Positions 423-37,718 of a stretch of 37,819 nt of DNA are shown in pieces (within the stretch, counting starts at the first letter, position 1; each line of letters starts with the position of its first letter). Source of the DNA: a virus; IMG/VR virus record IMGVR_UViG_3300046692_000184, positions 1 through 37,819 of that record. The stretch is one strand, 5' to 3'. A program made the translations under genes and the position numbers. The notes beneath the pieces are model-generated. The model saw only the letters and a list, made by a program, of their open reading frames with translations, searched no databases and was not told where the DNA came from.

Positions 423-440
423 TAAGTTACGAGTTACTTA
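423..440 (+). promoter_or_regulatory. dispersed operator-like site 1
   Basis: TAAGTTACGAGTTACTTA begins two bases after the stop codon of the tail terminator gene and lies before the tail tube gene. It matches the near-palindrome TAAGTWACGCGTWACTTA at 17 of 18 positions. No convincing -35/-10 pair surrounds it, so it may act as a roadblock or stoperator rather than a promoter operator. Confidence 0.6.
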
Positions 441-474
441 CCGTAGCTTGGACCTCTTTGCAAAGGAGTTTTGA

Positions 475-990
475 GTGGCAAGCGATACAAAGAACGTAAA
501 GATGGGCGTCTGCCTGGTCTATTACAAGGGCGTGGATCTGGGCTACACCCAGGGCGGCGTCCAAGTGACCGTGACCACGGAAACGCACAAGACGAACGTG
601 GACCAGTTCGGCAAGACCACCGTCAACGAGCAGATCATGAGCCGTGACGTGTCGGTGAAGGTGCCCTTGGCGGAAACCACGCTGGAAAACCTCGTCACGA
701 CCATGCCGGGCGCGACGATCAGTGGCACGGGCTCGGACAAGAAGGCGATCGTCACGACCGGCGTGGGCGTGTCCCTGCTCGATCTGGCGGGCGAACTGCG
801 TCTGCACCCGAAGGGCATCCCGGCCGACGACTACAGCGAGGACTTCGTGATCCCGCTGGCGGCGACCTCGGGCGGCCTGAACTTCGCCTACGAAGTCGAA
901 AAGGAACGCATCTTCGACGTGACCTTCCAGGGCTACCCGGACCCGGCCACCGAAGAGCTGTTCCAGATCGGCGGCGCGCCGACGCCGTAA
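475..990 (+). CDS. major tail tube protein
   Basis: A 171-aa protein beginning with GTG, chosen because AAGGAG at 463-468 sits six bases upstream. The sequence is beta-rich with many Thr/Val stretches and acidic loops, as expected of tail tube proteins that stack as hexameric rings. Its place between a terminator-like gene and a frameshifted chaperone pair is the classical position of the tube gene (lambda V). It is separated from both neighbours by operator-like sites and followed by a strong GC hairpin, so its mRNA may be processed or dosed separately to give high expression. No C-terminal Ig-like domain is apparent. Confidence 0.8.
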   Translation: MASDTKNVKMGVCLVYYKGVDLGYTQGGVQVTVTTETHKTNVDQFGKTTVNEQIMSRDVSVKVPLAETTLENLVTTMPGATISGTGSDKKAIVTTGVGVSLLDLAGELRLHPKGIPADDYSEDFVIPLAATSGGLNFAYEVEKERIFDVTFQGYPDPATEELFQIGGAPTP

Positions 991-993
991 GAA

Positions 994-1011
994 AAAGTTA
1001 CGCGTTACTGA
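994..1011 (+). promoter_or_regulatory. dispersed operator-like site 2
   Basis: AAAGTTACGCGTTACTGA lies four bases after the tail tube stop codon. Its core AAGTTACGCGTTACT is identical to that of the site at 27899. There is no clear promoter around it and it sits immediately before a GC hairpin. Confidence 0.6.
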
Positions 1012-1015
1012 CCAA

Positions 1016-1034
1016 GGCCGGCGAAACGCCGGCC
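1016..1034 (+). other. strong GC hairpin between tail tube and chaperone genes
   Basis: GGCCGGCG (1016-1023), loop AAA, CGCCGGCC (1027-1034) form a perfect 8-bp stem. There is no T-run after it, so it is not a standard intrinsic terminator. It could protect the 3' end of the tail tube message or attenuate transcription into the chaperone genes, giving more tube than chaperone. Confidence 0.55.
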
Positions 1035-1055
1035 TGCCTACATCGGATACCCATC

Positions 1056-1397
1056 ATGAGCAACGTGAAAGTCCTGAATCTCGACACTCTGCCGACCAGC
1101 GCGCCGCAGCGCGTGGTGACCATCGGCGGCGTCGAATACCCGGTGAAAGAGATGGACGTCGAGGGCTTCATCGAGACGAACCTCGCCGCCGACCGCCTGA
1201 AGGATCAAACCGACCCGAAGGTGCAGATCGAGGAAATGATCGCTTCGATCAAGCGCGCGGTGGAGATCCCCGACGCGGTGCTGAAAAAGCTTTCGCTGGA
1301 AAAGCTCGGCGTGCTGGTCGCCTTCCTGCGCGGTCTGTTCGACCCCGACAAGAAGGACGTCGAGGGCGCCGAAGGCGGAGAAGCTGAAAAAAACTGA
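1056..1397 (+). CDS. tail assembly chaperone, short form (G-like)
   Basis: A 113-aa acidic protein in the lambda gpG position between tail tube and tape measure. Such chaperones coat the tape measure protein and bring tube subunits to it, and are absent from the virion. The ATG lies 66 bases after the tube gene. The 3' end runs through GAA AAA AAC TGA, which contains the canonical slippery heptamer A AAA AAC immediately before the stop, so most ribosomes should release this short form and some continue into the -1 frame. The assignment is strong because position, size and frameshift signal agree. Confidence 0.85.
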   Translation: MSNVKVLNLDTLPTSAPQRVVTIGGVEYPVKEMDVEGFIETNLAADRLKDQTDPKVQIEEMIASIKRAVEIPDAVLKKLSLEKLGVLVAFLRGLFDPDKKDVEGAEGGEAEKN

Positions 1398-1738
1398 CGC
1401 CGCCGGGTGAGGAGAAAGAGCAGGAGCTCGACTTTAGTCTGCTCTTCACCCGGGTTCAGCGGCATTACCGCATGACGTATTGGGAAGTGATGAGACTTCC
1501 CATTCGCGCTTTCTGGACCCTGAACCGCAACATCAACCGGCTGCTCGCGGAAGAAGACCTCCGCGCCCTGATGCTGCACACGGCCCGCCAAAGCCGAGAG
1601 GGCGCGCAGGGCCATGAAACCAAGCTCCGAGCCGAGCTCTATCAGACGGAAGAGAAGCGATTCGATCCGCTGAACGAGGAAAGAGACGAAACGGGCTTCG
1701 CGGAGCTTAAGGCGATGGTGGCCCGTCCGACAAAGTGA
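1056..1738 (+). CDS. tail assembly chaperone, frameshifted long form (GT-like)
   Basis: A -1 shift at the heptamer 1388-1394 fuses the G-like protein to a downstream frame that is open from CTG at 1394 through the internal ATG at 1472 to the stop at 1738. The added T-like part is about 114 aa, beginning LTPPGEEKEQELDF and ending in a charged helical region. In lambda-like phages the T domain recruits tail tube subunits while the G part binds the tape measure. The internal ATG at 1472 has no good ribosome site, so the T part is unlikely to be a separate protein. It ends 12 bases before the tape measure start. Confidence 0.83.
1388..1453 (+). promoter_or_regulatory. programmed -1 ribosomal frameshift signal
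   Basis: The slippery heptamer A AAA AAC (1388-1394) is in the correct phase in the G-like frame. Eight bases later a stem can form between CCGGGTGAGGAG (1403-1414) and CTCTTCACCCGG (1442-1453): twelve pairs with one G-U, enclosing a 27-base loop. Slippery site, short spacer and stimulatory stem are the three expected parts of a -1 frameshift element. Confidence 0.88.
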
Positions 1739-1750
1739 CACAGGACGAAG

Positions 1751-4700
1751 ATGGCAAGCAACCTCGAAAACATTGGCTACAACCTGATTCTTGACGACTC
1801 GGGTTTTCGCGTCACGGCTCAATCGACCGCCGCCCAGCTGAAGGCGCTCGAAGCGCAGTTCGCGACCACGGGCCAGGGCGTGAAGGCCATCGAGGCGAAG
1901 ATCAACTCGGCCGGGGTTGCTTTCCATCAGTGGGTCACCACCATCGGCGCGGTCAAGTTCGCGCTGATGGACATCGATAGCGTGTTCCTCTCGCTGCCGC
2001 GCTCGATCATGGACACCGCGGGCGAGCTGGAGAAGCTCACCACCGTCCTCAAGGGCCTCTCAACTGCTGCGACCGACGCCGGCCGTAACGCCGACGCCGC
2101 GCTCGGCAAGCAGTTCATCCTGAACCTCGAACAGAACGCGCCGTTCAAGCTCGGTGCGCTCACGGACGCGTTCGTCAAATTCAAGACGGTCGGTATCGAC
2201 CCCACGAAGGGGTCGCTGGAAGCGCTCGTCAATCAGGTTGCCAAATACGGCGGCGGGTCCGAGCAGCTGAAGAGTGCGTCGCTCGCGATTCAGCAGATGG
2301 CGGGCAAGGGCACCGTCTCGCTGCAAGAGCTGCGCCTGCAGCTGTCGCAGGCGATTCCGAATGCCGCACAGGCAATGGCGACCGGCATGGGCATGTCGAT
2401 GGCCGCGCTCACCAAGGCGATCAGCACGGGCTCCGTGCAGTCGGCGGGCGCCATCAACAAGATGCTCGCGGTGTTTCAGAACGACTCGATGGGGGCGGCC
2501 GCGCAGCAGATGCGCACCTGGCAGGGCGAAATCGAAAAGCTGAACGTGCGCTGGGAGCTTTTCAAGAACGACGTCGCCGAAGCTGGCATGTTCGACGCCG
2601 CGAAGGCCGAGCTCGAAGAGCTCATGAAGCTCTTCGGCACGCCGCAGGCAAAAGCGTGGGCGACCGACCTGTCCGCTTCGTTCACGACCCTCATCGGCCT
2701 CTTTCACAGTGGCCGGGAGGCGCTCACTGAATACCTTCCGCAGTTGGTGACGCTCGGCAAGGTGCTGCTCGCAGTGTTCGGCACGAACATGGTCGGGAAC
2801 TTCCTGGCCGGCATGCGCAATGCGCTCGTGGGCATGAACGCATCGTGGCGCGAATACGCCGCCAACGCGATCATCGCTCAGGATGCGGTCGCGGCCAAGC
2901 AGCTGACGGTCACCGAGCAGATCCTCGCCGCTGACGCGCAGCGCCGCGCGAGCATCGCGCAGGAAAGCGAAATCCGGCAGGAAGCGCTCGCCAAAGAGAT
3001 CGGCGACAACCAGAAGCTCATTGCGGCCAACGCCGAGCGCTATGCCGCCGCCGACGCCGCGCGTCACGAGGAGTATGCGAAGGAAGTCGCCAACAATGAG
3101 GCGGTTCTCGCGCAGAAGATTGCGCTCTTCGAGGAGCTGCAGGCGCGCGAAGTCGCCGCCACGCAGTTCGTTGTCGCCGAGCAATACAAGCGCGCCCAGA
3201 TGGGCATGGCGAGCAACGCTGCGACCGCCGCCGAATACGCCGCGCAAGACGCCTATACCGCCAAGCTGGAACAGCGCCTCGCCTCGATGCGCGCGGAGAT
3301 CGCGCTGCTCGAGCAGGAGACGGTCGCCATCCTCACGCGCAACAATGCGCTCAAGCAGGCGATCGCGCTCGAGACGGAAGCGATCGTGGCGACCAACGGG
3401 CTGACCGCGGCCACCAGCGCTGAAAACGCCGCGCTGGTTGCGAAAAACGCCGCGCTTGCGACTGCAATCACCGCCGAGCAGGCGGCCGTCGCCAATATGG
3501 CCGAGATGACGCGCGGCGCGGCGATGCTCGAGTCCGGCATCATGAAGCTCAAGTTTGCCTTCAACGCGATGGGCGGCTGGATCACGGTCGTATCGGCCGC
3601 GATCATTGCCGGCATTGCGCTGTGGGAAAAGTATCGCGACACCGCCGCGCAGGCCGCGCGCGCCGCCGTCTCGGCTGCGACGCTCAACAAGGCGATGCAG
3701 CAAAACAAGGTCACGCAGGGCCAGATCGACGACGCGGACTCGGGCATCAAGAACAAGAAGGCCGAGATCGGCAACATCGACACGCAAATCTCGATGCGCA
3801 AGTCGGGGCTGGACGAGCAAGGCAACTGGGTCGGCCGGGTGGGAGACGACGACCCCGAGATCAAGGCGCTGAAAGCCAAGCGCCAGGCATTGCAGGGCGA
3901 GGTGAACAGCCTCTCGGACGTGCGCAAGCAGGCGCAGAGCTCGCTCGACAAGGCGAATTCGGTGCTGGAGAGCCACGCTTACGCGCAAGGGCTCCAGGAA
4001 AAGTCCGACGAGGAGCTGCGCACGCTGTCGGCTGCGCGTGCGAAGCGCATCGCCGACATTCAAGACGATTTCAAGGATCGCCTGAAGACGGTCAAGGTCG
4101 GCTCCGACCAGGAGAAGGCGATCCTGCAGCAGCAGGCCGACCAGTTGAAGGCGGTCGAGGTGGACATCACCGCGCAGCGCGTGGCAACGCTCACGCAACG
4201 CCGCGACGCGATCAACGATCAGATCAAGAAGGGCTTCGTCGGCAAGGATGCGCAGGCCCAGATGGCTGCGGCCGCGACCGAGCAAAAGCGCCTGAACGAC
4301 GAGATTTCGCAGGCGCAGTCGAGCATCGACGCGCTCAACGCGCCCAACCAGATCGGCACGAAGGGTAAGAAGACCGGCAGCGCGAAGCCGCCGACGGACC
4401 TCTTTGCCAAGAAGAACGCCGACATCAGGTCGCAGCTCGAGCAGGCGAAGGCGCAGCTCGCCCAGATCGTCTCGGGCGCCTCCGAATACGACCAGATCCG
4501 CACGCAGGCTGAAGCGAAGATCCGCGCGCTCTGGGAAAACGGCGAACTCGACACGAAGGGTCACGGTAAGGATGCGAAGAACACCCGGCCGGACTTCAAC
4601 GGCTCCAAGGTGCAAGGGCTCATCGACGACGAGACGATGCTCCAAATCACGGAGAACGCCAAGCAGCAGATGGAGTCGCTCAAGGGCAAGCTTGCGCCGC

Positions 4701-6597: not shown

Positions 6598-7233
6598 ATG
6601 CCAAACCTGATTTCCGTTGCGAGCATCATCGAGAAGAACAAGATCGGCTCGGACGTCCCGTATCTCGCCTTCATCGACGTAGGCGTGATCGACCCGACCA
6701 CGGGCGACGTGTCCGAGACGCTCTACTACGTGAACAACACCGAGGCGGTGGTCCGGCAGGGCATCACGTATTCGCCCATGCAGTTCTCGCTGGAGCTCAA
6801 GACACAAGCGGGCGCCGCGCCCCAGATCACCGTGTCGCTCATCGACTACACGCGCGCGGTGATCGAGAAGATGAACAACTACGGCGGCGGCACCGACTTC
6901 CCGGTGACAATTCGCGTGTGCCAAACGGGTGGGCTGAACGACACGCCCGATGTCGAGGAGCACTTCGTCATCACGCAAGGCGCGGTGGACAACTACGTCG
7001 TCACCTGGACGCTTGGCGCCGAGAACGCGCTCACCAAGCAGTTCCCGCGCCGGCTGCAACGGCGGGACTTCTGCCAGTGGGTTTACAAGGACGGGCGCAC
7101 CTGTCGCTACAACGGCTCGCTTGCATCCTGTGACCGCACGCTTGCCGGACCACTCGGCTGCCGCGCGCACAACAACGTAATCAACTTCGGCGGCTCGCCG
7201 AATCTGGTTTCAAGCAACCTCGTTGTCGCGTAA
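6598..7233 (+). CDS. minor tail protein L-like with four-cysteine C-terminal domain
   Basis: A 211-aa protein in the lambda gpL position. Four cysteines lie in the C-terminal domain at residues 159, 169, 178 and 188 (DFCQW, RTCRY, ASCDR, LGCRA). Lambda gpL binds a [4Fe-4S] cluster through four C-terminal cysteines, so a cluster here is likely by family knowledge, although the spacing is not the same. The N-terminal part is beta-rich and would form the ring at the tail tip. It starts directly after the M-like stop codon, and the next gene begins two bases after its own. Confidence 0.85.
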   Translation: MPNLISVASIIEKNKIGSDVPYLAFIDVGVIDPTTGDVSETLYYVNNTEAVVRQGITYSPMQFSLELKTQAGAAPQITVSLIDYTRAVIEKMNNYGGGTDFPVTIRVCQTGGLNDTPDVEEHFVITQGAVDNYVVTWTLGAENALTKQFPRRLQRRDFCQWVYKDGRTCRYNGSLASCDRTLAGPLGCRAHNNVINFGGSPNLVSSNLVVA

Positions 7234-7234
7234 A

Positions 7235-7627
7235 ATGGATAAGTCACCCATTACATATGTTGACCTGATCGGGACACCCTTTCGGCGCGGCGCGCGCGGG
7301 CCAGACGAGTTCGATTGCTACGGCCTCGTCAAGTTTCTGATCGAGCGCGCCACGGGCCGCGAAGTGCCGGATTACCAGAGCCCGACGGACAGCGGCGCGA
7401 CGCACGCGCTAATGATTACCTCGCGCGAGTTCTGGCACCGGCTGCCCGGCCAGCAGGTCGGCTCGATGGTGTTCTTCCGGATCGGCCGTGAGGTCTGTCA
7501 TGTCGGATATGTAATAAGTAACGGGTTATTCATTCACGCGTGGGAGCCATCGGGCGGCGTAACGATCGAGCGGCTCTCGGAGTGGGAAAAACGGATCGAC
7601 GGGTTCTATGAATACATCGAAGGCTAA
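7235..7627 (+). CDS. tail tip NlpC/P60 peptidoglycan hydrolase (K-like)
   Basis: A 130-aa single-domain NlpC/P60 cysteine peptidase. Cys28 lies in FDCYGLV, the catalytic His89 in VCHVGYV, and His101 is a plausible third residue. Tail-borne members cut stem peptides of peptidoglycan to help DNA entry. Lambda gpK carries an additional Mov34-type N-terminal domain that is missing here. An in-frame TTG at 7223 would overlap the L-like gene, but the ATG at 7235 is preferred; neither has a strong ribosome site, so translational coupling is likely. An operator-like site is embedded in its coding sequence at 7515-7532. The 3' end overlaps the I/J-like gene by 20 bases. Confidence 0.85.
   Translation: MDKSPITYVDLIGTPFRRGARGPDEFDCYGLVKFLIERATGREVPDYQSPTDSGATHALMITSREFWHRLPGQQVGSMVFFRIGREVCHVGYVISNGLFIHAWEPSGGVTIERLSEWEKRIDGFYEYIEG
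7515..7532 (+). promoter_or_regulatory. dispersed operator-like site 3 (inside the K-like gene)
   Basis: TAAGTAACGGGTTATTCA lies inside the coding sequence over the residues ISNGLF. It is read with ATA, AGT and TTA codons, which are scarce in the surrounding GC-rich genes, suggesting the DNA sequence itself is kept. It lies about 90 bases upstream of the I/J-like start. Confidence 0.5.
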
Positions 7628-13754: not shown

Positions 13755-18756
<5,002 letters not shown>

Positions 18757-19775: not shown

Positions 19776-19800
19776 TAAGTTACGAGTCACTTACTATAAT
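19776..19800 (+). promoter_or_regulatory. operator-like site 5 with adjoining TATAAT
   Basis: TAAGTTACGAGTCACTTA (19776-19793) is followed after one base by TATAAT (19795-19800), a perfect -10 box. No TTGACA-like -35 is seen 16-18 bases upstream (TAGATA). It probably drives the gene at 19859 and possibly the lysis genes. Confidence 0.6.
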
Positions 19801-20199: not shown

Positions 20200-20217
20200 T
20201 AAGTAATCGGTAACTGG
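20200..20217 (+). promoter_or_regulatory. dispersed operator-like site 6
   Basis: TAAGTAATCGGTAACTGG starts three bases after the stop of the 19859 gene and precedes the lysis cassette. It matches the consensus less well in the right half. No clear -10 box is attached to it. Confidence 0.45.
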
Positions 20218-23853: not shown

Positions 23854-24555
23854 GTGATCCACCACACCACGTTTTACGGCAAAGAACTGACGGTCGCGGA
23901 CTGCGAAATCCTCGCGCTGACCCGCGTCGATCCCTCGCTGCGGGCGGCCGAGAGCCTGCTTTTCGGCCGCAAGTGGTTCGACTACCGCGTCTTCCACCCC
24001 GTGCAAGCCACCTATCTCTTCGCCCACGAATACGCGGAAAGCACCAAGCGCGCATACGCCCGCCAAAAAGACATTCGCACAGTCGCGGGCGTGCAGGGGT
24101 TCGATGTCGAAAAGCTTTTCGAGAACCGCGAACTCTCCGCGATGTGGCGGGCACGTCAATCCTTTGATGCGATCGGCTGCCGCTACGACTTCGCCATCGA
24201 CTTCATCATGAGGCGATTCTGTGAGCGCGGCTGGAGAGTGTGCCCCCGGCCCAACCAGCTCTACGCGGAGGAGGTCGTGCTCGACGTGCGCGACGCCTGG
24301 CAGCGCGAGTGCAAGGCAAAGATGCAGATCGCCAAGCAAGAGCGGTTCGATGCGCGCCGCTACACCGGCCACCCCGACCAGAAAGCCTACCAGGCGTGGC
24401 AAGTCGATCAGGTCAAAACCCGCGGCGGCAACCGAGCCATGCTGCTCGGACGACTGCTGCAGGAGAACGTGCTCGCCGAAGCGGTAGTGAGCGCGGCATT
24501 CGGCGAGGCGACCCTCTTACAAGCACGCAAGTTCGTTGTCTCATCCAATAAGTAA
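23854..24555 (+). CDS. phage protein of unknown function in the replication module
   Basis: A 233-aa protein starting with GTG, preceded by GAGGAAG. It is rich in Arg, Tyr and Trp, helical, with no membrane segment; notable phrases are FGRKWFDYRVFHPVQATYLF and a C-terminal basic region (RYTGHPDQKAYQAWQVDQVKTRGGNRA). The basic aromatic character would suit nucleic-acid or protein binding, but I do not recognise a domain. The last codons (AAT AAG TAA) lie inside operator-like site 7. Confidence 0.65.
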   Translation: MIHHTTFYGKELTVADCEILALTRVDPSLRAAESLLFGRKWFDYRVFHPVQATYLFAHEYAESTKRAYARQKDIRTVAGVQGFDVEKLFENRELSAMWRARQSFDAIGCRYDFAIDFIMRRFCERGWRVCPRPNQLYAEEVVLDVRDAWQRECKAKMQIAKQERFDARRYTGHPDQKAYQAWQVDQVKTRGGNRAMLLGRLLQENVLAEAVVSAAFGEATLLQARKFVVSSNK

Positions 24556-24569
24556 TTCGTTACTATACT
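24549..24569 (+). promoter_or_regulatory. operator-like site 7 overlapping a TATACT -10 box
   Basis: TAAGTAATTCGTTACTAT (24549-24566) overlaps the end of the 23854 gene, and its right arm runs into TATACT (24564-24569). No good -35 box is found at normal spacing. It should control the Hfq-like gene, the helicase and the primase. Confidence 0.65.
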
Positions 24570-26807: not shown

Positions 26808-27901
26808 ACGACGATCTCGGCGAGCTCCTCGAGCGCGTCGACATGGCTGCCTATCTCGACCGCGAGGGCATCTCCTACCGGGAGACGCACGGACGGTCGG
26901 GCCAGCAGTTGAACATTCGCGAGTGCCCGCTGTGCGGCAACAGCGATTGGAAGGTCTACGTCAATGCTGAGTCGGGCGTGGGCAACTGCTTTGCAGGCTC
27001 CCACCCGGCTGAAGAGCGCTTCTTCACGAAATACAAGTTCATCCGTGCCCACCTCGGCTCGCCGATGGGCGGTAAGGTGGTCGATCACATTCGCGTGTTC
27101 GCGCGTGAAATGGGCTGGCGGCCCGCGCGACGCGTCTCAGCCAAGGTCGAGAACGCACCGGGCGCGTGGGAGTTGCCCAAGCACGTCACGCTGCCGCACA
27201 ACGGGCAGAACATGCCGTATCTGGAGAACCGCGGGATCGACTCGGAGCTCGCCGCCTATTTTCACCTCGGCTACTGCGCGAACGGGGCGAGCTTCCGATA
27301 CCTGTCTGAGCGTGGCTGGGCCTCGCAGGACTGGTCCCGTCGCATTCTGATCCCGGTCTATGACCTCGACGGCAAGATCGCGACCTTCCAGGGGCGTGAC
27401 GTGACGGGCCGGGCAGAAAAGAAATACCTGTTCCCGCCGGGCATCGACGGCTCGGGCGTGCACCTGTTCAACGGGCTGAACGTCCGCGACACGAGACGTA
27501 TCGTGGTGGGTGAGGGCGCATTCGACGTGGCGGCGACCAAGATCGCGCTCGACGGCGACGCCGAGCTGCGCGACGTGGTGCCGGTGGGCACCTTCGGCAA
27601 GCACCTCTCCTCGGGCAGCGAGAACAGCCAGCTCGCAAAGTTCCAGACGTTGAAAGAGCGCGGCGTCGAAGAGGTAACGCTCATGTGGGACGGCGAGGTC
27701 CAGGCCACCGACGACGCGATTGTGGCGGGCCTGCTGCTCAAGTCAGTCGGCTTGCGCGTGCGCGTGGCGATGCTGCCGGCAGGGTGCGATCCGAACGAGG
27801 TGTCGGCCGACGTAGTGCGCCAGGCGTTCTACCAGGCGAGGCTGCTCGACCGCCGCTCGGCGCTGGAAATCATGACGCTTCGTCGCAAAATGAATGGATA
27901 A
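26804..27901 (+). CDS. DNA primase, zinc-ribbon plus TOPRIM (T7 gp4 N-terminal type)
   Basis: A 365-aa protein; the GTG at 26804 overlaps the previous stop and gives a normal N-terminus. The zinc-binding domain has Cys41, Cys44, Cys62 and His67 (ECPLCGNSD, NCFAGSH). The TOPRIM fold begins IVVGEGAFDVAATK with Glu237 as the likely metal ligand, followed by the TLMWDGEVQATDDA acidic block. It would make RNA primers for lagging-strand synthesis together with the DnaB-type helicase. Unlike T7 gp4, helicase and primase are separate polypeptides. The stop codon lies in operator-like site 8. Confidence 0.87.
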   Translation: MNDDLGELLERVDMAAYLDREGISYRETHGRSGQQLNIRECPLCGNSDWKVYVNAESGVGNCFAGSHPAEERFFTKYKFIRAHLGSPMGGKVVDHIRVFAREMGWRPARRVSAKVENAPGAWELPKHVTLPHNGQNMPYLENRGIDSELAAYFHLGYCANGASFRYLSERGWASQDWSRRILIPVYDLDGKIATFQGRDVTGRAEKKYLFPPGIDGSGVHLFNGLNVRDTRRIVVGEGAFDVAATKIALDGDAELRDVVPVGTFGKHLSSGSENSQLAKFQTLKERGVEEVTLMWDGEVQATDDAIVAGLLLKSVGLRVRVAMLPAGCDPNEVSADVVRQAFYQARLLDRRSALEIMTLRRKMNG

Positions 27902-27919
27902 GTTACGCGTTACTATACT
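27899..27919 (+). promoter_or_regulatory. operator-like site 8 overlapping a TATACT -10 box
   Basis: TAAGTTACGCGTTACTAT (27899-27916) includes the primase stop codon, and its right arm forms TATACT (27914-27919). It has the same arrangement as site 7. The -35 position (TGAATG) is poor. It probably drives the 27950-30766 unit. Confidence 0.67.
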
Positions 27920-28437: not shown

Positions 28438-29115
28438 ATGACCACCGAAACCGCCGTCGAAGCAAAACCGATTCTGCCGCCGTCCGTGTCTGCGGACGCG
28501 AAGCGCAACGCCTTCTACACGAAGTGCCCGGAGCAGCAATCGACCAAGCCCTACGCGATGTGCCAATACATCGCGGCCAATCAGGGCGACGACTCGATCA
28601 AGACGCTCTACGGCGATTGTCTGAGCGCGATTCACCGCGGCCGCTGCGTCGCGGTCGGTATGCGCGAGGAAGAGGAGCTCAAGGGCCAGGCAATTTACTT
28701 CGTCGAGCGCGTCAAAGGCGAGGCGCTGGTCGCCGCGCAGACGACGTGGGCCGCAAGCGCGCCGAAGCGCGGGTATCAGCGCAACAAGTATTCAGAGGGC
28801 GCGAGCTTGCAGCCCGCGCCGCGCGTCGCTATCCCGCGCCCGAGCACGCCTGCGCCCGCACCGAAGAAACCCGCGTTCGAGTTCGACGGCAACATCTACG
28901 CCGCCGCGCTAAACGCCGCAGTGAAGAAGGAGCGCAACGCAACTAACGATCAGGCTACGCCTGCAAAGGTGACGCCCGCCGCTGCCGCGCCGGTCGCACC
29001 GACCCCGGCTCCCCAGCCGGAAGCCGCACCCGCACCCATCAACATGACCAGGCGCGCGGGCGAGTCGCCTCTCGAAATGGCTCGCCGCCTTCGCGCACAA
29101 CAAGGGAGTAAGTAA
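28438..29115 (+). CDS. Cys-rich N-terminus, Pro/Ala-rich linker protein, unknown function
   Basis: A 225-aa protein; ATG 28438 is chosen because TAGGAGAGA lies just upstream, instead of an in-frame ATG at 28411 inside the preceding gene. Cys30, Cys42, Cys61 and Cys70 could bind a metal. Residues ~120-200 are a Pro/Ala-rich linker (PSTPAPAPKKPAFEF, PAAAAPVAPTPAPQPEAA), ending in a basic helix (SPLEMARRLRAQQ). It lies between the WGR-like gene and the ligase and may be an adaptor in DNA metabolism. No domain recognised. Its stop codon lies in operator-like site 9. Confidence 0.65.
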   Translation: MTTETAVEAKPILPPSVSADAKRNAFYTKCPEQQSTKPYAMCQYIAANQGDDSIKTLYGDCLSAIHRGRCVAVGMREEEELKGQAIYFVERVKGEALVAAQTTWAASAPKRGYQRNKYSEGASLQPAPRVAIPRPSTPAPAPKKPAFEFDGNIYAAALNAAVKKERNATNDQATPAKVTPAAAAPVAPTPAPQPEAAPAPINMTRRAGESPLEMARRLRAQQGSK

Positions 29116-29126
29116 CACATGACTTC
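29109..29126 (+). promoter_or_regulatory. operator-like site 9 overlapping the ligase start codon
   Basis: TAAGTAACACATGACTTC covers the previous stop codon and the ATG of the ligase gene (29119). It is more diverged than sites 7 and 8 but keeps both arms. No -10 box is visible. Confidence 0.42.
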
Positions 29127-30811: not shown

Positions 30812-30871
30812 CGCCGTTGCGGAACGTCGAAGCGGGGCCGTATCATGTGCGCAATTCAGGAGAAAGGGCAC

Positions 30872-31726: not shown

Positions 31727-31734
31727 GAGTCACC

Positions 31735-31827: not shown

Positions 31828-31947
31828 CGTTCTTCCTATGTCGTATTGATCAGGAGAAACGTGCTCGCGCTTGACGAAGCCACGATAGAATAAAGCGCAC
31901 CCACCGTCGCGGCCACGTGAGCCGTATGTTCAGCAAAGGCAGATGAC

Positions 31948-32496
31948 ATGAGCGTTGAGGAAGCAAAAAAGAGAGCGCTGGCAATCGTTCGGGAAAAGGG
32001 GCTGGACGTCGCCCTGATAACCGCGTTCCTTGAGACGCGGCATTACGCATCGTGGAGCAAACGGGACGATTTCGCCAAATACAATATTGGCCTGTCGAAC
32101 ATATCTGGCGGACCGATGCCCGTGACGGTCGGATTCGCGAGCGGGAACGGCAACTCTGTGACAGCACAGCTGGACGGCATCGTGTTCACGCTGCGGGGCG
32201 TGTGGTATCTGCCTATGTCGTTTGATAGCAGTATCGCGACCGACATCTATGAAGGCGTCGAACTGTTGCTCGGTAACGATGTCGTGCTTGCTGGGGTGTA
32301 TCAGGCGCGTGACCACGACGCGTGCATCCCGGCTCAATTTTCGCTGGTCAGCGTTGAGGGTTACCACTCAAGTCCGACGGCGGAACAGCTGCTCACGAAA
32401 ATTTCAGATTTGATCAAGGCACACAAAGCGAAGCAAGCGGCCGAGCGCCAGGCCGCGGAAACGGAAAAGTATCGTGGCAAGTTCTCCTTTGACTAG
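31948..32496 (+). CDS. accessory protein of unknown function
   Basis: A 182-aa protein with AAAGG upstream of the ATG. The N-terminal helix (EEAKKRALAIVREKGLDVALITAF) is followed by a beta-rich middle with a GNGNSVTAQLDGIVFTLRG phrase, and a Lys/Gln/Ala coiled-coil end (KISDLIKAHKAKQAAERQAAE). It stands alone on the + strand among - strand genes and is less GC-rich than the tail genes, so it is probably a late acquisition. No recognised domain. Confidence 0.6.
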   Translation: MSVEEAKKRALAIVREKGLDVALITAFLETRHYASWSKRDDFAKYNIGLSNISGGPMPVTVGFASGNGNSVTAQLDGIVFTLRGVWYLPMSFDSSIATDIYEGVELLLGNDVVLAGVYQARDHDACIPAQFSLVSVEGYHSSPTAEQLLTKISDLIKAHKAKQAAERQAAETEKYRGKFSFD

Positions 32497-32622
32497 GAGT
32501 TCCTCTGCGGTTTTCTTTTCACGCCTGCACAGGCTAGTTGACATAATACAAATTATCACCGTTTTGGGGCCAGATCATTTTTTGTCGTCCATGAGCTGGA
32601 CAAGGCCGGGGAAGCATTAGCG
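32497..32622. other. gene-free stretch between convergent genes
   Basis: This 126-base stretch is AT-rich. It contains TTGACA near 32538, ATAATACAAATTAT and several T-runs. The GGACAAG/CTTGTCC pair across 32591-32628 has a loop too long for a clear terminator. It probably holds the 3' ends of both converging units. Confidence 0.35.
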
Positions 32623-33285
32623 TTATTTTTGCTTGTCCGGTTTCAGTTTTATGCCTTGCAGTATGCACATAGCCTCCCTAAGGTCGTCACCTTCTCGTTT
32701 CGGCCGCGCTGCTCGCGCTGCTCGCGCTTCTGGGGTGCACACATCCGCCGAGGTCAGCTTTGTCGCTGAGGCGGGAGCGGGTGCGCTTGCTGGTGCGATT
32801 GGGGGTGCGCTTGCAGTTGCGGGTGCGGTTGCAGTTGTGGGTGCGGGTGCGGGTGCGGGTGGAGAACCTACAGCCTTGGGTGGTGGACCGGGAGACGGCT
32901 CAGCCGGCAGCAACCTATCTAACATCGCCATATACAACTCGGCCTTCTTATCCTTGTCGATGTTGTCTCTCGACATCATCTGGCAAAAGAGATAGAGCAG
33001 TCGATACTTTACATTCGCCTGCTCCGATGTCGGCACGTCGGCGAGATTTTGCGTCACCTGACTCATGTTCCTCTCAACGTTCCCGCCGATGTCTACAATC
33101 TTGTATAACGTTTTTGCTCCGGCGCGAGCCTTTTCCTCGGACCTCTGTGTGAGTTGGATGCGCGGGTCGAGTGGAGAGCAATCGTAGACGGGATCGTCGG
33201 CCAGCGCTTCGGTAGGACAAGCGACGGCGAAAACCGAAAACGCCGCAGCCGCGATGGAACGTTCCGTGTTCTTCAAATGACGCAT
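32623..33285 (-). CDS. exported Pro/Ala-rich protein of unknown function
   Basis: A 220-aa protein starting at ATG 33285 (AGGGG upstream). It has a signal peptide: basic start, hydrophobic AAAAFSVFAVA and cleavage expected after ALA at residue 29. The mature part has a helical domain, then a long Pro/Ala linker (PSPGPPPKAVGSPPAP and further), and a short C-terminal domain with VCTPEARAARA and MCILQG cysteines. It is probably periplasmic. It may be a lysogenic conversion factor. The codons for the linker create a GGTGCG-rich tandem pattern at about 32770-32870. Confidence 0.65.
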   Translation of the reverse strand: MRHLKNTERSIAAAAFSVFAVACPTEALADDPVYDCSPLDPRIQLTQRSEEKARAGAKTLYKIVDIGGNVERNMSQVTQNLADVPTSEQANVKYRLLYLFCQMMSRDNIDKDKKAELYMAMLDRLLPAEPSPGPPPKAVGSPPAPAPAPTTATAPATASAPPIAPASAPAPASATKLTSADVCTPEARAARAARPKREGDDLREAMCILQGIKLKPDKQK

Positions 33286-33332
33286 GATGTTTGCCCCTGC
33301 TAACTGGCATTGCCTGTCGGCAAAAAAAGACT

Positions 33333-33629
33333 TTACGCCACCCGGCACCACCATGATTGAGCGTAGGCAGTTCCGTCCACAAACTCAATGCCAGTCAGCA
33401 CAAACCCGAGCGGACCCATCCATGACAGCGCTGCGTCGTGCAGCGGCGGGAGCGGCTGCGGATCAGCTGCGCCGCCGGTCTGAAAGCGCGCGATGTTGGT
33501 GTAGCGGTTCAGCGCCGAGGACTTTTCCTGGCCGACCACCATGTCGCCCCGAACACCGGGCGCTCGCTGGACGTCGGCGTGATCTTGCGCCTTGCCGCGC
33601 ACGCGCATGGGTGTAGCTTGAATCAGCAT
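33333..33629 (-). CDS. small protein of unknown function
   Basis: A 98-aa protein that starts three bases after the stop of the gene before it on the - strand. It is mixed in character, with phrases GDMVVGQEKSSALNRYTNIARF and HDAALSWMGPLGFVLTGIEFVDG; the latter looks like a compact fold rather than random sequence. There is no clear ribosome site, so coupling to the upstream gene is likely. No domain recognised. Confidence 0.5.
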   Translation of the reverse strand: MLIQATPMRVRGKAQDHADVQRAPGVRGDMVVGQEKSSALNRYTNIARFQTGGAADPQPLPPLHDAALSWMGPLGFVLTGIEFVDGTAYAQSWWCRVA

Positions 33630-33631
33630 AA

Positions 33632-34051
33632 TTACCAGATGCGTTGAATTGCTGTGACCAGCGTGGCCGCCGCGAAAATAAACGCGTAAAAAGCAATCAT
33701 GGCTTTGACGATGCCAAGTAAGTGCCGGGTCGCGCGGCCCGTTCGTCGTGCCAAAATTTCGACGCCAGGGTCGACGGCCTTCTCCTCGGTTGTCTTCTGC
33801 TCAATTTTTGCGAGAGTTCCGTCAATGAGAGTCTGCTGCGGCTCGCTGACCTCCCGTCTTAACTCTTTCAGCTCGGCTACCAACTCGTTCATGTCCTTCT
33901 GAATTCTCGCTGCTTTCTCGTCTCGGAGCTTCTCAATCTCCAGCAGCCCTTTTTTGATCGTTATTGCACTAGAGAGGATTGTCGCAATTCCGACCAATGG
34001 GACGACGATTGCCGCTAGCACTTTAAGGACGTCGATCAAGCTATCGGGCAT
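33632..34051 (-). CDS. membrane protein with two spans and a coiled coil
   Basis: A 139-aa protein with a hydrophobic helix at about residues 8-30 (VLKVLAAIVVPLVGIATILSSA), a charged coiled coil (LLEIEKLRDEKAARIQKDMNELVAELKEL, in two parts) and a second helix near the C-terminus (AMIAFYAFIFAAATLVTAI). The layout resembles small phage inner-membrane proteins involved in exclusion or in holin-like functions. It lies in a - strand row after repA. Confidence 0.62.
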   Translation of the reverse strand: MPDSLIDVLKVLAAIVVPLVGIATILSSAITIKKGLLEIEKLRDEKAARIQKDMNELVAELKELRREVSEPQQTLIDGTLAKIEQKTTEEKAVDPGVEILARRTGRATRHLLGIVKAMIAFYAFIFAAATLVTAIQRIW

Positions 34052-34060
34052 GGTAACAAC

Positions 34061-34276
34061 TCAAAAATTCGATTCCAGCCATGCCCTCGCCCACGCGATC
34101 CCGCGCTCGAAGGCCGCGGCCTCGGTGTCGAAGTAGCCGATGTCGGTGAAGTGGAAAATGTGCCCCATGTCGTCCTCGCCCAACGAGCCTCGCTCGACCT
34201 CGACCCACGCGTGCCAGTGATGGCCCTTCTTTTGGGGAACCGAGTGGATCGTCCACTCGTGATGCTCGACCTTCAT
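34061..34276 (-). CDS. small His/Trp-rich protein of unknown function
   Basis: A 71-aa protein with GGAGAG before the ATG. It contains HHWHAWVEVERG and IFHFTDIGYFDTEAAAFERG. The sequence is compact and reads like a conserved small fold, of the kind seen as hypothetical proteins in Burkholderiaceae plasmids and phages. No metal-binding role is proven despite the histidines. It follows repA on the same strand. Confidence 0.6.
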   Translation of the reverse strand: MKVEHHEWTIHSVPQKKGHHWHAWVEVERGSLGEDDMGHIFHFTDIGYFDTEAAAFERGIAWARAWLESNF

Positions 34277-34308
34277 TGAAAACTCTCCACAGGCTTACCC
34301 ACCGTTTC

Positions 34309-34317
34309 TGTGGATAA
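34309..34317 (-). promoter_or_regulatory. DnaA box downstream of repA
   Basis: TGTGGATAA on the + strand is TTATCCACA on the - strand, an exact DnaA box. It is one arm of a TCCACAG/CTGTGGA inverted repeat (34286-34314) just past the repA stop, which might also work as a weak terminator. Confidence 0.55.
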
Positions 34318-34349
34318 GTCGATACGTTCGGGCCTGACAGTTAGTTGCA

Positions 34350-35093
34350 TCAAAGCGGCAGCGTGCCTTGGGGATTGCGCCGGAATTCGAACCGAATGTC
34401 CGTCACCTTGCGCCCCTCCTTAATCGGCGACCACGTAATGTCCCATCCGTCTTTCTCCTGCAACTCCTTCACGGCGACCTCGATGATCTGCTTGCGAGCG
34501 TCCTTGAAGTTCTGCAGATGGCTCGGCTTCGCGTCCATCGCGTGCAGGAAGTCCTTGATGGGCATCTGACGCCAGCCGGTGTCTTTGAACTGCATGAGGA
34601 GCTCGAGCAGCCGCCACGAGTAGATCGAGCGAAGCTCCGACGCCTGGCGCAAGAGATAGGTCGTGTGGTTGCCTCGCAGCACCATCAGATACGGCGTCGC
34701 TTCCGGCGAGAAGCGCAGCTCCACCCACCCTGCCCTGTCCACGTAAGTCGCCCCGCTCACCCACCGATCCTTGTGGGCCGCGATCGCACCGCGCTGCACC
34801 GGCTCGGTCCAGGTGATCCATCGCTCCGCGAGCCCCTCGACGCCGGACTTCAGTTGCTCGTAGGCGGTCGTGGGATCGAGATTGAATGTCTCGGCGTATT
34901 CCTTCGCTGTCAGTCGCACCTTGTAGCGGTTGTGACTGTCAAGGCGCACACTGTCGATCTTCGCGGCGCACGACTTGACGATGCGCTGCTCGGCAAGCGT
35001 CTTGAGCCCATGCGAGGCGACCAGGAGGTCGTTGTGCATGGAGACGTGTCGATCAACGAGACTCAGCCCAGGAGTGGCGTGCTTGAGCTTCAT
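34350..35093 (-). CDS. repA: plasmid replication initiator, Rep_3 family
   Basis: A 247-aa protein with the two winged-helix domains typical of Rep_3 (RepA/RepB) initiators: the first runs from MHNDLLVASHGLKTLAEQRIVKSC to the LRGNHTTYLLRQASELRSIYSWRLLELL block, and the second ends with GRKVTDIRFEFRRNP. Such proteins bind iterons as monomers to open the origin and repress their own gene as dimers. Iteron-like repeats lie directly upstream and one overlaps the start codon. The gene lacks its own ribosome site, but a 19-codon leader ORF with a strong one ends across its ATG, so translation is probably coupled. Confidence 0.88.
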   Translation of the reverse strand: MKLKHATPGLSLVDRHVSMHNDLLVASHGLKTLAEQRIVKSCAAKIDSVRLDSHNRYKVRLTAKEYAETFNLDPTTAYEQLKSGVEGLAERWITWTEPVQRGAIAAHKDRWVSGATYVDRAGWVELRFSPEATPYLMVLRGNHTTYLLRQASELRSIYSWRLLELLMQFKDTGWRQMPIKDFLHAMDAKPSHLQNFKDARKQIIEVAVKELQEKDGWDITWSPIKEGRKVTDIRFEFRRNPQGTLPL

Positions 35094-35149
35094 TGGGAGG
35101 AATTCCGGTTTCGCGGGAGCGGCTTATTGGGAGTGATCGGATTTTGCAC
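35090..35149 (-). CDS. 19-codon leader ORF coupled to repA
   Basis: On the - strand AAAGGAGAAAAGGGG is followed by GTG (35149), opening a frame MQNPITPNKPLPRNRNSSQ whose TGA (35092-35090) overlaps the repA ATG as ATGA. RepA itself has no ribosome site, so ribosomes finishing this peptide would reinitiate on repA. This is like the leader peptides used by some plasmids to set initiator levels. Confidence 0.6.
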   Translation of the reverse strand: MQNPITPNKPLPRNRNSSQ

Positions 35150-35226
35150 CCCCTTTTCTCCTTTGTCACTGGGAGGATTTCCGATTCAATGGGAGGAAAA
35201 CCGGGTTACTGGGAGGATTTCCGGGT
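35092..35226 (+). repeat. iteron array 1 (five forward copies) of the plasmid origin
   Basis: Copies start at 35092, 35126, 35168, 35188 and 35208 and share the pattern ACTGGGAGGATTTCCGGGT. The last three are exactly 20 bp apart, about two helix turns, as expected for iterons. The first covers the repA start codon. Confidence 0.85.
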
Positions 35227-35235
35227 CCGGGAGCC

Positions 35236-35244
35236 TGTGCATAA
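35236..35244 (-). promoter_or_regulatory. DnaA box in the origin
   Basis: TGTGCATAA on the + strand reads TTATGCACA on the - strand and fits TTATNCACA. It follows the forward iteron array. A weaker copy (TTGTTCACA on the - strand) lies at 35421-35429. Confidence 0.6.
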
Positions 35245-35275
35245 CCCTACTTCGACCGGCTTTTCTCCCAATGCG

Positions 35276-35309
35276 TGACCGGTCGCCCTCCTACTTTGAC
35301 CGGTCGCCC
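35276..35309 (+). repeat. direct repeat TGACCGGTCGCCC within the origin
   Basis: Two exact copies at 35276-35288 and 35297-35309, 21 bp apart, lie between the iteron arrays. Each contains the palindrome GACCGGTC. They could bind a second origin factor. Confidence 0.6.
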
Positions 35310-35374
35310 ACCCATTTAACCCGGAATCTCTCCCATTACCTGCCTGCAAACCCATGCTGGGTAAGGCTTTGAGC

Positions 35375-35405
35375 CGTATACAAACGTTTAAGAACGTATA
35401 CAAAC
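35375..35405 (+). repeat. direct repeat CGTATACAAAC in the AT-rich part of the origin
   Basis: Two exact copies at 35375-35385 and 35395-35405, 20 bp apart, each with a GTATAC palindrome, in the most AT-rich part of the origin. This is a good candidate for the DNA unwinding element. Confidence 0.55.
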
Positions 35406-35556
35406 CACGCGCGAGTAGGCTGTGAACAACTTCTCGCATCTCTTTGATTACCCGGGATTCCTCCCAATCCAAATATCCCGGGAATCCTCCCAATTCGCGT
35501 AACCCGGAAATTCTCCCAATAGGACAAGTCCTAAAAGGCAGTCTGCAAAGGGGTGG

Positions 35557-35928
35557 TCAGTCCATGCCCAGGCGCTTCTTCTCGCGCGCGACTTCCTTGG
35601 CTACCGCCTCGGCGATGAAGTCGTTCTTGGTCTTGCCGAGCGCGAAGCAGAGCAGGTTCAAATCCTCCTTCAGCGCTGGCGGGATGCGAACCGGCTGCTG
35701 CACCGGCGTCTCCTTCTTCGGCAGCGCCGCGCGGATGGCCTGCAGATCCACACCTTTACCCACGCGAACCGGCGCCCTCCTCTCTGCAACGACCACCGGC
35801 TCAGGTGCTTGGTCCTCTATCTCCCCCGCCTGAGCTGCGGGCGCCGGCTCATCAATGGCCGCCGTCTCTGCATTCAGGCTGTCGAGCCACGCTTTGCTTT
35901 TCGGTGCGCTCATCGGGTCTTTGCTCAT
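35557..35928 (-). CDS. ribbon-helix-helix partition protein (ParB/ParG-like)
   Basis: A 123-aa protein overlapping the parA stop by ATGA. The N-terminal ~75 residues are acidic, Pro/Ala-rich and probably flexible. The C-terminal part (residues ~77-115, QQPVRIPPALKEDLNLLC...KNDFIAEAVAKEV) has the strand-helix-helix shape of RHH proteins such as ParG and CopG. In type Ib systems such a small protein binds the centromere repeats, contacts ParA through its flexible arm and represses the operon. No canonical ParB HTH is present. The context strongly supports partition. Confidence 0.78.
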   Translation of the reverse strand: MSKDPMSAPKSKAWLDSLNAETAAIDEPAPAAQAGEIEDQAPEPVVVAERRAPVRVGKGVDLQAIRAALPKKETPVQQPVRIPPALKEDLNLLCFALGKTKNDFIAEAVAKEVAREKKRLGMD

Positions 35929-36581
35929 GAAAACACTCCAAGGTAAAGGTCTTTCATTTCGTTGGCAGCGGCACTATCCCAATCCCGGCCCGAGAGCTCG
36001 GACACCGCCCTCCCCTGCGCATTGGCGAACTTGTAGGTTTCACGCGTCGCGACCAGCTTCGTCAGGACCGGCAGCTTGTCCTCGAACGGCTCCAACTGTT
36101 TGATCATCGACTTGGTGAAGCGCTTGCGCGGATCGGCCTGATTGAGCACCACGCGAATGTCGATCTGGCGTTTGTAGCTGCCGACCAGTGCGTGTAGATC
36201 GGGCACCGTGTCGAGGTCCATCTGCGACGGGATCAGCGGCGCGAGCACCTTCTCAGCGACGGCCAGGCCGTAGCGGAAGCCGTCCGAGTCCTTGCCGCCG
36301 ACGTCGATGAAAACGTCCTGATACTGATCGGTGAGACGATCGAGCACCTCGGCGAATTCCTGCTTCGTGATCGGCTTGCGCGGTTCCCACCGCTCGACAT
36401 GGACCTGCGGAAGAGCCGGGTCGTTAGCGCGGCGTGCCGCCCACTTCGCGGTGCTGTTTTGTCCGTCGAGGTCGAATACGGCAACCGTGCGCTTGAGCGA
36501 TGCCCGGATCGCTGCCAAATTCTGGGTGAAGGTAGATTTGCCCACGCCTCCCTTCTCTGTTCCCACCATAATTACGGCCAT
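35925..36581 (-). CDS. parA: ParA-type partition ATPase
   Basis: A 218-aa deviant Walker ATPase: MVGTEKGGVGKST holds the signature Lys10 and the Walker Lys15; VFDLDGQNS is the Walker A' block and FIDVGGKDSDGFRYG the Walker B region. It lacks an N-terminal HTH, which marks the short type Ib class. ParA binds nonspecific DNA with ATP and moves the replicon along the nucleoid. ATG 36581 is chosen, since it gives the family-standard MAVIMVGTEKGG start and has GAGG upstream; ORF extension to 36635 adds an unlikely tail. It is followed by its RHH partner. Confidence 0.9.
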   Translation of the reverse strand: MAVIMVGTEKGGVGKSTFTQNLAAIRASLKRTVAVFDLDGQNSTAKWAARRANDPALPQVHVERWEPRKPITKQEFAEVLDRLTDQYQDVFIDVGGKDSDGFRYGLAVAEKVLAPLIPSQMDLDTVPDLHALVGSYKRQIDIRVVLNQADPRKRFTKSMIKQLEPFEDKLPVLTKLVATRETYKFANAQGRAVSELSGRDWDSAAANEMKDLYLGVFS

Positions 36582-36694
36582 AGAAGCCTCGATTGAATGT
36601 GTGAATTGTGCGTAGAGTAAAGGCTTGCGCCCCACACTTCAAGTAGATTATGAGCATTTGGAACTACGTCGGAGCAATGCAAGCCACTATTCAA

Positions 36695-36748
36695 CCGAGG
36701 TATCAAGGTATGTTGGTATCAAGATACCAACCGAGGTATCAAAATACC
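36695..36748 (+). repeat. centromere-like (parS) repeats and operator upstream of parA
   Basis: GGTATCAA occurs at 36699-36706, 36715-36722 and 36735-36742. CCGAGGTATCAA is repeated exactly at 36695 and 36731. The middle copy forms the inverted repeat TTGGTATC-AA-GATACCAA (36713-36730). In type Ib par operons such repeats upstream of parA are both centromere and operator for the RHH protein. Confidence 0.7.
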
Positions 36749-36996
36749 GCCGGACGGAGAAACGCCGTTGTAGCCGAAGCAAGGTAGATCGGTCTGAGGC
36801 GAGGCAACGCGCAACTAAGTTTGTTTGGTCAGTAGGTCGGTCTGCCGAGAGCGAGCGTGAGACGATTCTCTCTATTGTGCGAGCGCGCACACAAGCCCCA
36901 ACGCTACAGAGAGATCAATCGATGGCCCTAAGAAGCTGGCAAGGTGAGAGTAAAGCTTGATCGGCAGAACGCGATCAAAGAAGGGACCAGCCAAAC

Positions 36997-37022
36997 AAAA
37001 AACCCACGTCTGAGCGTGGGTT
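36997..37022 (-). terminator. rho-independent terminator of the HTH repressor gene
   Basis: On the - strand AACCCACG, loop CTCAGA, CGTGGGTT form an 8-bp stem that runs into a T-tract (TTTTTT at 37002-36997). It lies 35 bases after the repressor stop codon. Confidence 0.85.
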
Positions 37023-37056
37023 CATATCCAACAAGTATGCGCCAATGGGTGCTCCC

Positions 37057-37476
37057 TTATTTGTCTGTTCGCTTGTTGTAATCCTTCAGAACATGGCGAA
37101 TTGCTCCATTGAACTCAGGATCGTCAAAGTCCACGTCAGCACCTTTGAGCTCTTCCGAGACTATCCGCTGGAAGTCTTTCTGCGATTTCGTCACGAACTT
37201 GTCGCCGAGCACCTCGTCGATGACCTTCCATGCATCCGGCATGTATTCGTTCATCACGAGCTTCAGTAAGTGCGCCGGATCGACTCCCAACACGATCGCC
37301 ATTGCTCGGACCTTGTTGATCGGCAGCTTGGTCTTGCCTTGCTTGAACAGCGTGATGACGTTGCGGTTCGGATATTCGAGCGCATCGCATATCTCAGCCT
37401 GCGTCTTGCCGCTCAAGTCGATCGCGCGAGTGATGTATTCCGCCACCGAGAGTGGCTGCTGTTTCTTCGTGGTCAT
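37057..37476 (-). CDS. HTH (XRE/Cro-like) regulator, probable phage repressor
   Basis: A 139-aa protein with an N-terminal helix-turn-helix (residues ~24-50, KTQAEICDALEYPNRNVITLFKQG) and KLPINKVRAMAIVLGVDPAHLLKL, the standard five-helix XRE arrangement. The C-terminal ~70 residues are acidic and may form the dimer interface; there is no LexA-type peptidase, so it should not self-cleave. GGGGGAAAC precedes the ATG. It is transcribed away from the + strand gene at 37719, and its leader carries two of the dispersed operator-like sites. It is the best candidate to bind the whole set. Confidence 0.78.
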   Translation of the reverse strand: MTTKKQQPLSVAEYITRAIDLSGKTQAEICDALEYPNRNVITLFKQGKTKLPINKVRAMAIVLGVDPAHLLKLVMNEYMPDAWKVIDEVLGDKFVTKSQKDFQRIVSEELKGADVDFDDPEFNGAIRHVLKDYNKRTDK

Positions 37477-37718
37477 GTTTCCCCCAGATTGTTAGTAATT
37501 AGTGACATACAGATTGTGAGAACAAATTGGTAACCGCTAACTTTCCCTCATGTGTTTGATTATAGAACGCAAAATTGGTTGCCGAGAAAAAAACACTGCC
37601 GATGCTGATGGCGATGCTGTTTGCTGAAGTTGCATCGTGTTCGGTCGCGCACACTACAATATAAGTTAGACGTTACATAACAAGTGACGTAATTCTAACC
37701 CTACCGAGGAGTTGCCTG
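37477..37718. promoter_or_regulatory. divergent immunity control region
   Basis: It has three dispersed-operator copies: TTAGTAATTAGTGACATA (37492-37509), TTGGTAACCGCTAACTTT (37527-37544) and TAAGTTAGACGTTACATA (37662-37679). A perfect TATAAT on the - strand (37564-37559) would start the repressor message at about 37552, just upstream of the first two sites. Rightward, TTGCAT (37630) and TACAAT (37655) with a 19-base spacer are a weak promoter next to the third site. A partial arm (AAGTGACGTAATTCT) lies at 37682. Confidence 0.62.

Follow-up and report, generated by a model that had tools for sequence, protein, structure and literature searches.

Dispersed 18-bp near-palindromes as probable operators of an HTH immunity repressor in an SSU5-supergroup phage-plasmid

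Introduction

Immunity in which a single repressor acts at many dispersed operators is known from phage P1, whose C1 repressor binds 22 such sites (PMC8546580), and related arrangements are known from mycobacteriophages L5 and Bxb1 and from the Bacillus phage SPbeta. Here we describe the 18-bp near-palindromes of a 37,819-nt stretch of DNA (the window; the linear IMG/VR record IMGVR_UViG_3300046692_000184), which gene content places in a phage-plasmid of the SSU5 supergroup. These sites are very probably operators of the 139-amino-acid (aa) helix-turn-helix (HTH) immunity repressor that the element encodes.

P1 C1 is the closest precedent, so the principle is not new in proteobacterial phage-plasmids; an earlier sequence-only reading of the window, which had thought a circuit of this kind novel there, was mistaken on this point. 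P1 combines, as the window element appears to, one repressor with many operators scattered through ~95 kb of genome, both at lytic promoters and in the immunity region, and with plasmid replication that goes on under repression. The P1 operator is an asymmetric 17-mer, ATTGCTCTAATAAATTT (PMC8546580), whereas SSU5-family sites are 18-bp palindromes numbering 22-55 per genome, and the repressor of the window element is a 139-aa protein of the Cro/C1 type. No Coi or Lxc partner was identified in an SSU5-family element, and no search for one was made.

The sequence-only reading had likened the sites to L5 stoperators. The analogy holds for a single repressor and dispersed sites and is weaker on their form: SSU5-family sites are palindromic and largely at promoters, whereas those of L5 are short and asymmetric, follow the direction of transcription and for the most part lie away from promoters (PMC6550527). 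L5 and Bxb1 further resemble the SSU5 family in having tens of gene-border sites, a motif particular to each phage that diverges with its repressor, and virulent derivatives without a functional repressor, as SSU5 itself appears to be. Among L5-type phages, D29 is such a derivative. In SPbeta the master repressor MrpR acts at a repeated element (SPBRE) in dispersed promoters, which was recognized in silico and afterwards confirmed by chromatin affinity purification sequencing (ChAP-seq) (PMC10516654). Differences are that MrpR is recombinase-like, that its motif is 15 bp long and that the element is integrated and has ~10 sites. The repressor of the Streptomyces phage phiC31 has conserved, palindromic ~17-bp inverted repeats dispersed at early promoters; the host and the repressor are unrelated to those considered here, and the lifestyle is integrated.

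No description of dispersed operators in the SSU5 supergroup was found in the open-access literature searched, and a family-wide palindromic operator network appears to be undescribed. Some elements of the supergroup carry antibiotic resistance (PMC9600943). An operator code would let sequence alone predict superinfection immunity, co-residence and induction, would show quickly whether repression of an element can still work, and would provide a proteobacterial counterpart to L5 for studying the joint specificity change of a repressor and dozens of operators.

Sites in the window and in related genomes

A symmetric 18-bp matrix, built from the twelve near-palindromes listed in the sequence-only reading, found all twelve where they had been reported and added a thirteenth at 7240-7257 (Table 1). 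The scores of all 13 were 16.9 bits or more, that of the best other non-overlapping hit was ~8, and only 0.02-0.08 hits at 12-14 bits were expected by chance in simulated sequence. Each listed site fell in the top 13 of a leave-one-out scan, and the pattern TAAGTWACGCGTWACTTA with at most three mismatches gave 7 window matches versus 0.02 expected. Scanning the full genome and its relatives likewise placed the sites far above chance and found them conserved.

A 215,656-bp contig, IMGVR_UViG_3300046694_000296, contains the window at positions 3625-41438 with 99.9% identity, within a genome of 108.9 kb, so that the window represents one third of a phage-plasmid of ~109 kb. The contig holds two colinear phage-plasmid genomes in tandem, head to tail (copy A, 1-108,902; copy B, 108,903-215,656), which share 77-90% identity in aligned blocks and have a diverged rep/par/repressor block; two co-resident elements may have formed a co-integrate, or the contig may be a chimera of the assembly. 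A megablast search of the window against phages returned no match. Among the relatives is a circular 107,329-bp Cupriavidus plasmid that carries phage genes, TrfA and MipZ; its terminase and 18 other proteins have homologues in most relatives, and its gene order is common to the annotated Salmonella phage SSU5 and the Escherichia coli phage-plasmid Cyrano. A size of ~100-120 kb, an SSU5-type terminase, the order tail-lysis-helicase-primase-ligase-DnaE, and a Rep3 RepA with ParA assign the window element to the SSU5 supergroup. As published, the supergroup takes in the enterobacterial types, to which AB-type Acinetobacter elements are distantly related (PMC12977533). SSU5, Cyrano/pLF82, the AB-type Acinetobacter elements and pLM21S1 have the same gene order, terminase and repressor slot, and sites are present in all examined members.

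Full-genome matrix scans found 38 sites in copy A and 36 in copy B, with fewer than 0.4 expected by chance. An annotation-free search for over-represented gapped palindromes recovered an AGTAA-N4-TTACT or AGTCA-N4-TGACT half-site in most genomes. With motif refinement seeded with AGTMA-N4-TKACT, all 26 repressor-bearing genomes have 22-55 dispersed sites each, in the single 18-bp register TAAGTMA-N4-TKACTTA, within which the palindrome is lineage-specific (Table 1). A second site type, with its centre off by 2 bp, was considered for period-4 motifs and rejected: the loci are identical, and the repeat merely extends further on one side.

Site positions are kept between genomes. Of the 34 alignable copy A sites, 33 are matched by a copy B site at the same place, and site identity between the copies peaks at the informative positions and is lowest around positions 6 and 9-11. 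Copy A and the Cupriavidus plasmid share 17 orthologous genes that bear sites (p=1e-6); the corresponding numbers are 8 for copy A and SSU5 (p=0.006) and 9 for Cupriavidus and SSU5 (p=0.0015).

Genes and promoters at the sites

Intergenic DNA makes up 15% of copy A, though 34 of its 38 sites are intergenic, at a median distance of 52 bp from the next start codon (gene starts in copies A and B and in genome G003 come from a simple gene caller). The TAA of a site often doubles as the stop codon of the preceding gene. Contrary to the earlier placing of sites at gene borders, those at 7240 and 7515 overlap a tail peptidase gene (7235-7627) and do not lie at a border.

When 146 sites were oriented by their downstream gene, a -10 box was found on or beside 81 (55%), compared with 28 (19%) with shuffled flanks and with 15% in site-free intergenic control stretches. 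Offsets of the -10 box cluster at +16/+17, where the site spans the spacer and overlaps the box, with a second cluster at -12 to 0, where the site spans the start point. Over all genomes the mean -10 fraction is 0.58 versus 0.32 in shuffled sequence, the excess being present in most other genomes and weak in a few. Window sites 423, 7240, 13762, 19776, 24549, 27899 and 37662 have a -10 box, and sites 994, 7515, 20200 and 29109 have none. The sequence-only reading had noted overlaps with -10 boxes, which are seen at 13762, 24549 and 27899; it had also called 423 and 994 promoter-less, which is correct for 994 but not for 423, a site that abuts a TTGACT/TATAGT promoter. We consider promoter blocking the main action because -10 boxes concentrate at the sites, and judged by these positions most sites are probably promoter operators, as in P1, and not L5-type stoperators.

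The opposite case, that most sites are stoperators of the L5 type serving as repressor-dependent roadblocks inside operons, is unlikely. It would account for the promoter-less sites 994, 7515, 20200 and 29109 keeping their position in copy B, for nearly all sites lying between co-directional genes, and for the two sites in the repressor leader, downstream of its -10 box. It accords poorly with -10 boxes at more than half of the sites, far above the controls, and with half-sites that stay near-symmetric after orientation by transcription, whereas L5 sites are oriented and mostly away from promoters (PMC6550527). Roadblocking may occur at a minority of sites, those without a promoter.

Features of dispersed-operator immunity present here are many operator copies genome-wide, sites at the repressor locus, and overlap with predicted lytic promoters. 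If the sites are operators, a repressor dimer would bind ~38 of them over the 109-kb genome. Many coincide with the -10 box or the transcription start of a lytic promoter nearby, which the bound dimer would block. The three sites between the repressor gene and the divergent early operon would allow repressor autoregulation together with shut-off of the early promoter, and repA and parA, which have no site, would stay on, so that the element would persist as a plasmid. As the sequence-only reading had noted, no copy lies in the plasmid block (none between 29127 and 37491), and the same is true of the block in copy B. A gap of this length (8.4 kb) is ordinary where 38 sites are spread over 109 kb, and another of 8.5 kb lies elsewhere; the gap is not taken as significant alone. 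The accompanying idea of a silent phage with active repA and par is compatible with the data, although the lack of sites in this block carries little statistical weight.

The repressor and its link to the sites

The product of 37057-37476 is assigned to the Cro/C1-type (HTH_3) proteins by profile and structure-model comparisons. Profile searches with sub-alignments of closer family members matched it to 434 Cro and to immunity repressor 8bny, and Pfam found an HTH_3 domain in 13 of 17 members of the repressor family; the window repressor alone had no Pfam match, and no S24 peptidase domain was found in its 139 aa. Its structure model has a predicted local distance difference test (pLDDT) score of 89.7, with a recognition helix at 39-46, and aligns to the DNA-binding domains of 434 Cro and P22 c2 with template-modelling (TM) scores of 0.77-0.81 by target; the E-values are all >0.001, and therefore the HTH class alone is claimed. 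In most relatives examined the gene occupies the same slot, with a small gene, a CobT/porphyrin-like gene and DnaE as its divergent or adjacent neighbours, and the Cyrano repressor gene, in this slot, is expressed in lysogens (PMC9928086). Among 72,556 public plasmids, 901 encode a protein related to the window repressor; most of these come from Klebsiella, Escherichia, Acinetobacter and Enterobacter.

Sites cluster at the repressor gene, at 37492, 37527 and 37662, as had been observed earlier, and 5' sites recur in relatives: at least one lies within 600 bp 5' of the gene in 25 of 26 genomes, with 46 observed (a hand sum from the listing) versus 5.7 expected. The distance between repressors correlates with the distance between motifs (Mantel r=0.60). 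This holds given the terminase (partial r=0.44, p=2e-4), while terminase and motif correlate at -0.07 given the repressor; controlling for any one of 19 other proteins likewise leaves the repressor-motif partial correlation significant (0.26-0.51). Residue 37 lies just before the recognition helix in the model. It is K or R in all 9 genomes whose motif has C at position 6 (frequency at least 0.90) and neither in 17/17 others, and the K/R switch maps to three changes on the terminase tree, each accompanied by a motif change. A two-way rule (N37 with AGTAA, K/R37 with AGTCA) held in the first genomes; only its K/R-to-C half is claimed because the N37-to-A direction failed on new genomes. The proposal that a single repressor acts on dispersed operators is strongly supported by the repressor-proximal sites, the covariation and the common register in 26 genomes.

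Several observations weigh against this interpretation. In Cyrano no site was called 5' of the repressor gene, and 45% of sites are without a -10 box recognizable as sigma70-like by an E. coli matrix. Weak motif correlations (0.19-0.28) are left for DnaE, ParB2, NrdA and RecA given the repressor. The residue rule runs one way, since N37 occurs mostly with A but with C-rich motifs in some cases (G021, G022; L171-L173), and it was derived from the first genomes, its K/R-to-C half then holding in new ones. Orphan repressor relatives on Thauera and Lichenihabitans plasmids without an SSU5-type terminase have no dispersed sites of the SSU5-family kind, and operator prediction beside these orphan genes gave none that was clear.

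Natural losses and alternative explanations

The virulent relative phiK7B1 has neither repressor nor sites but keeps the core genes and the two ParBs, which are 39% and 35% identical to their Cupriavidus counterparts. SSU5 has 25-28 sites and no repressor homologue; a 6.6-kb stretch with repressor and integrase in the Salmonella plasmid AnCo3 (13294-19872) corresponds to 74 bp in SSU5, and the break falls at ~position 42600, at the end of a tRNA-Asn. From this comparison SSU5 looks like a natural repressor-deletion derivative.

The phiK7B1 genome bears directly on the suggestion that the palindromes are dispersed parS-like partition sites bound by a phage ParB, as are the N15 centromere sites outside the par locus. 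In form, 18-bp palindromes are similar to parS; moreover, two ParB-like proteins are encoded by family members, and ParB2 distance correlates with motif distance (r=0.58). With both ParBs and no sites in phiK7B1, with sites gathered at promoters and the repressor gene and not at par, and with a ParB2-motif correlation given the repressor (0.20) below that of repressor and motif given ParB2 (0.28), a partition role is very improbable. We put as little weight on an activator, phage sigma or antitermination factor reading the sites as a late-gene promoter element. Many late and middle genes do have a site 20-100 bp 5' of them, and -35 elements are often poor; but the sites overlap or follow the -10 box (offsets -7/-4 and +16), which fits a blocker, the repressor gene itself is flanked by them, and the viability of SSU5 without a repressor fits the loss of a silencer. 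A sequence artefact (codon-bias repeats, terminators or iterons) is hardly credible, for although a codon-bias palindrome, GAGCT-N5-AGCTC, does occur in 54 copies in copy A, all 54 lie inside genes versus the largely intergenic operator sites, which moreover evolve with the repressor and are absent from virulent phiK7B1. The ParB, iteron, terminator and codon-bias readings were rejected on the phiK7B1 contrast and on the confinement of the codon-bias palindrome to genes.

Taking the sites as repressor operators, a broader scheme can be put forward tentatively, as doubtful in its entirety. The SSU5 supergroup, in alpha-, beta- and gammaproteobacteria, may have one ancient hybrid immunity, in which a small non-cleavable HTH repressor would act on 25-55 palindromic operators, comprising promoter operators and promoter-less roadblocks. 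Lineage-specific co-evolution of residue 37 and the half-site would decide which elements can co-reside, and SSU5 and phiK7B1, as wild virulent phages, would have arisen by repressor loss and would mark successive steps in the decay of the operators.

Feature coordinates and other repeats

Table 1. Sites and genes of the window, with site motifs of the window element and its relatives
Feature	Sequence	Coordinates	Strand	Remarks
Site	TAAGTTACGAGTTACTTA	423..440		abuts promoter TTGACT (393-398), 18-bp spacer, TATAGT (417-422)
Site	AAAGTTACGCGTTACTGA	994..1011		-10 not visible; kept in copy B
Thirteenth site	TAAGTCACCCATTACATA	7240..7257		over start of gene 7235-7627; TAAAAT at 7231; absent from the earlier list
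Site	TAAGTAACGGGTTATTCA	7515..7532		within gene 7235-7627; next start 76 bp on; no -10 box
Site	TAAGTAACCCGTGAGTTA	13762..13779		end overlapped by -10 TACAAT (13778-13783)
Site	TAAGTTACGAGTCACTTA	19776..19793		-10 TATAAT (19795-19800)
Site	TAAGTAATCGGTAACTGG	20200..20217		-10 not visible
Site	TAAGTAATTCGTTACTAT	24549..24566		end overlapped by -10 TATACT (24564-24569)
Site	TAAGTTACGCGTTACTAT	27899..27916		end overlapped by -10 TATACT (27914-27919)
Site	TAAGTAACACATGACTTC	29109..29126		start of ligase gene; -10 not visible
repA, Rep3-family initiator		34350..35093	-	plasmid block; no site nearby
parA/MipZ-like ATPase		35925..36635	-	plasmid block; no site nearby
Repressor gene, 139-aa Cro/C1-type HTH protein		37057..37476	-	predicted recognition helix 39-46; candidate specificity residue N37
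Site	TTAGTAATTAGTGACATA	37492..37509		repressor start codon 16 bp downstream
Site	TTGGTAACCGCTAACTTT	37527..37544		in leader of repressor gene
Probable -10 of repressor promoter	TATAAT	37559..37564	-	sites 37527 and 37492 downstream, in leader
Site	TAAGTTAGACGTTACATA	37662..37679		just 3' of rightward -10 TACAAT (37655-37660) of divergent lytic operon
Divergent rightward gene, start		37719..37819	+	cut by window end; ribosome-binding site GAGGAG; partly inferred
Motif, window element	TAAGTAAC-NN-GTTACTTA
Motif, Cupriavidus	TCAGTCAG-NN-CTGACTGA
Motif, Methylobacterium	TAAGTCAGCGCTGACTTA
Motif, Acinetobacter ZW85p2	TTAGTAAGCGCTTACTAA
Motif, enterobacterial genomes	TAAGTAAGTACTTACTTA

Other repeats were seen in the same genomes. 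Upstream of parA, window positions 36690-36760 hold a cluster of GGTATC / TTGGTATCAAGATACCAA repeats that is likely a partition site or par operator. The Cupriavidus plasmid (NZ_CP083720.1) has a dense array of CATATCATATCATATGATATG-like repeats at 87609-87984, upstream of MipZ, likely a partition site or operator. Other dispersed or clustered palindromes occur in Sinorhizobium pLM21S1 and Acinetobacter ZW85p2, namely TAGCTA-N2-TAGCTA (17 copies) and AGATATCTATATAGATATCT (14 copies). In SSU5, Cyrano, E. coli S56 plasmid B, Citrobacter, AnCo3 and Klebsiella JP20, 17-23 copies of another dispersed, intergenic palindrome (AGAAAACAA-N-TTGTTTTCT-like) are present, which possibly represents a second regulon of the enterobacterial clade; in SSU5 all 21 copies lie outside genes, most of them 18-92 bp ahead of a start codon.

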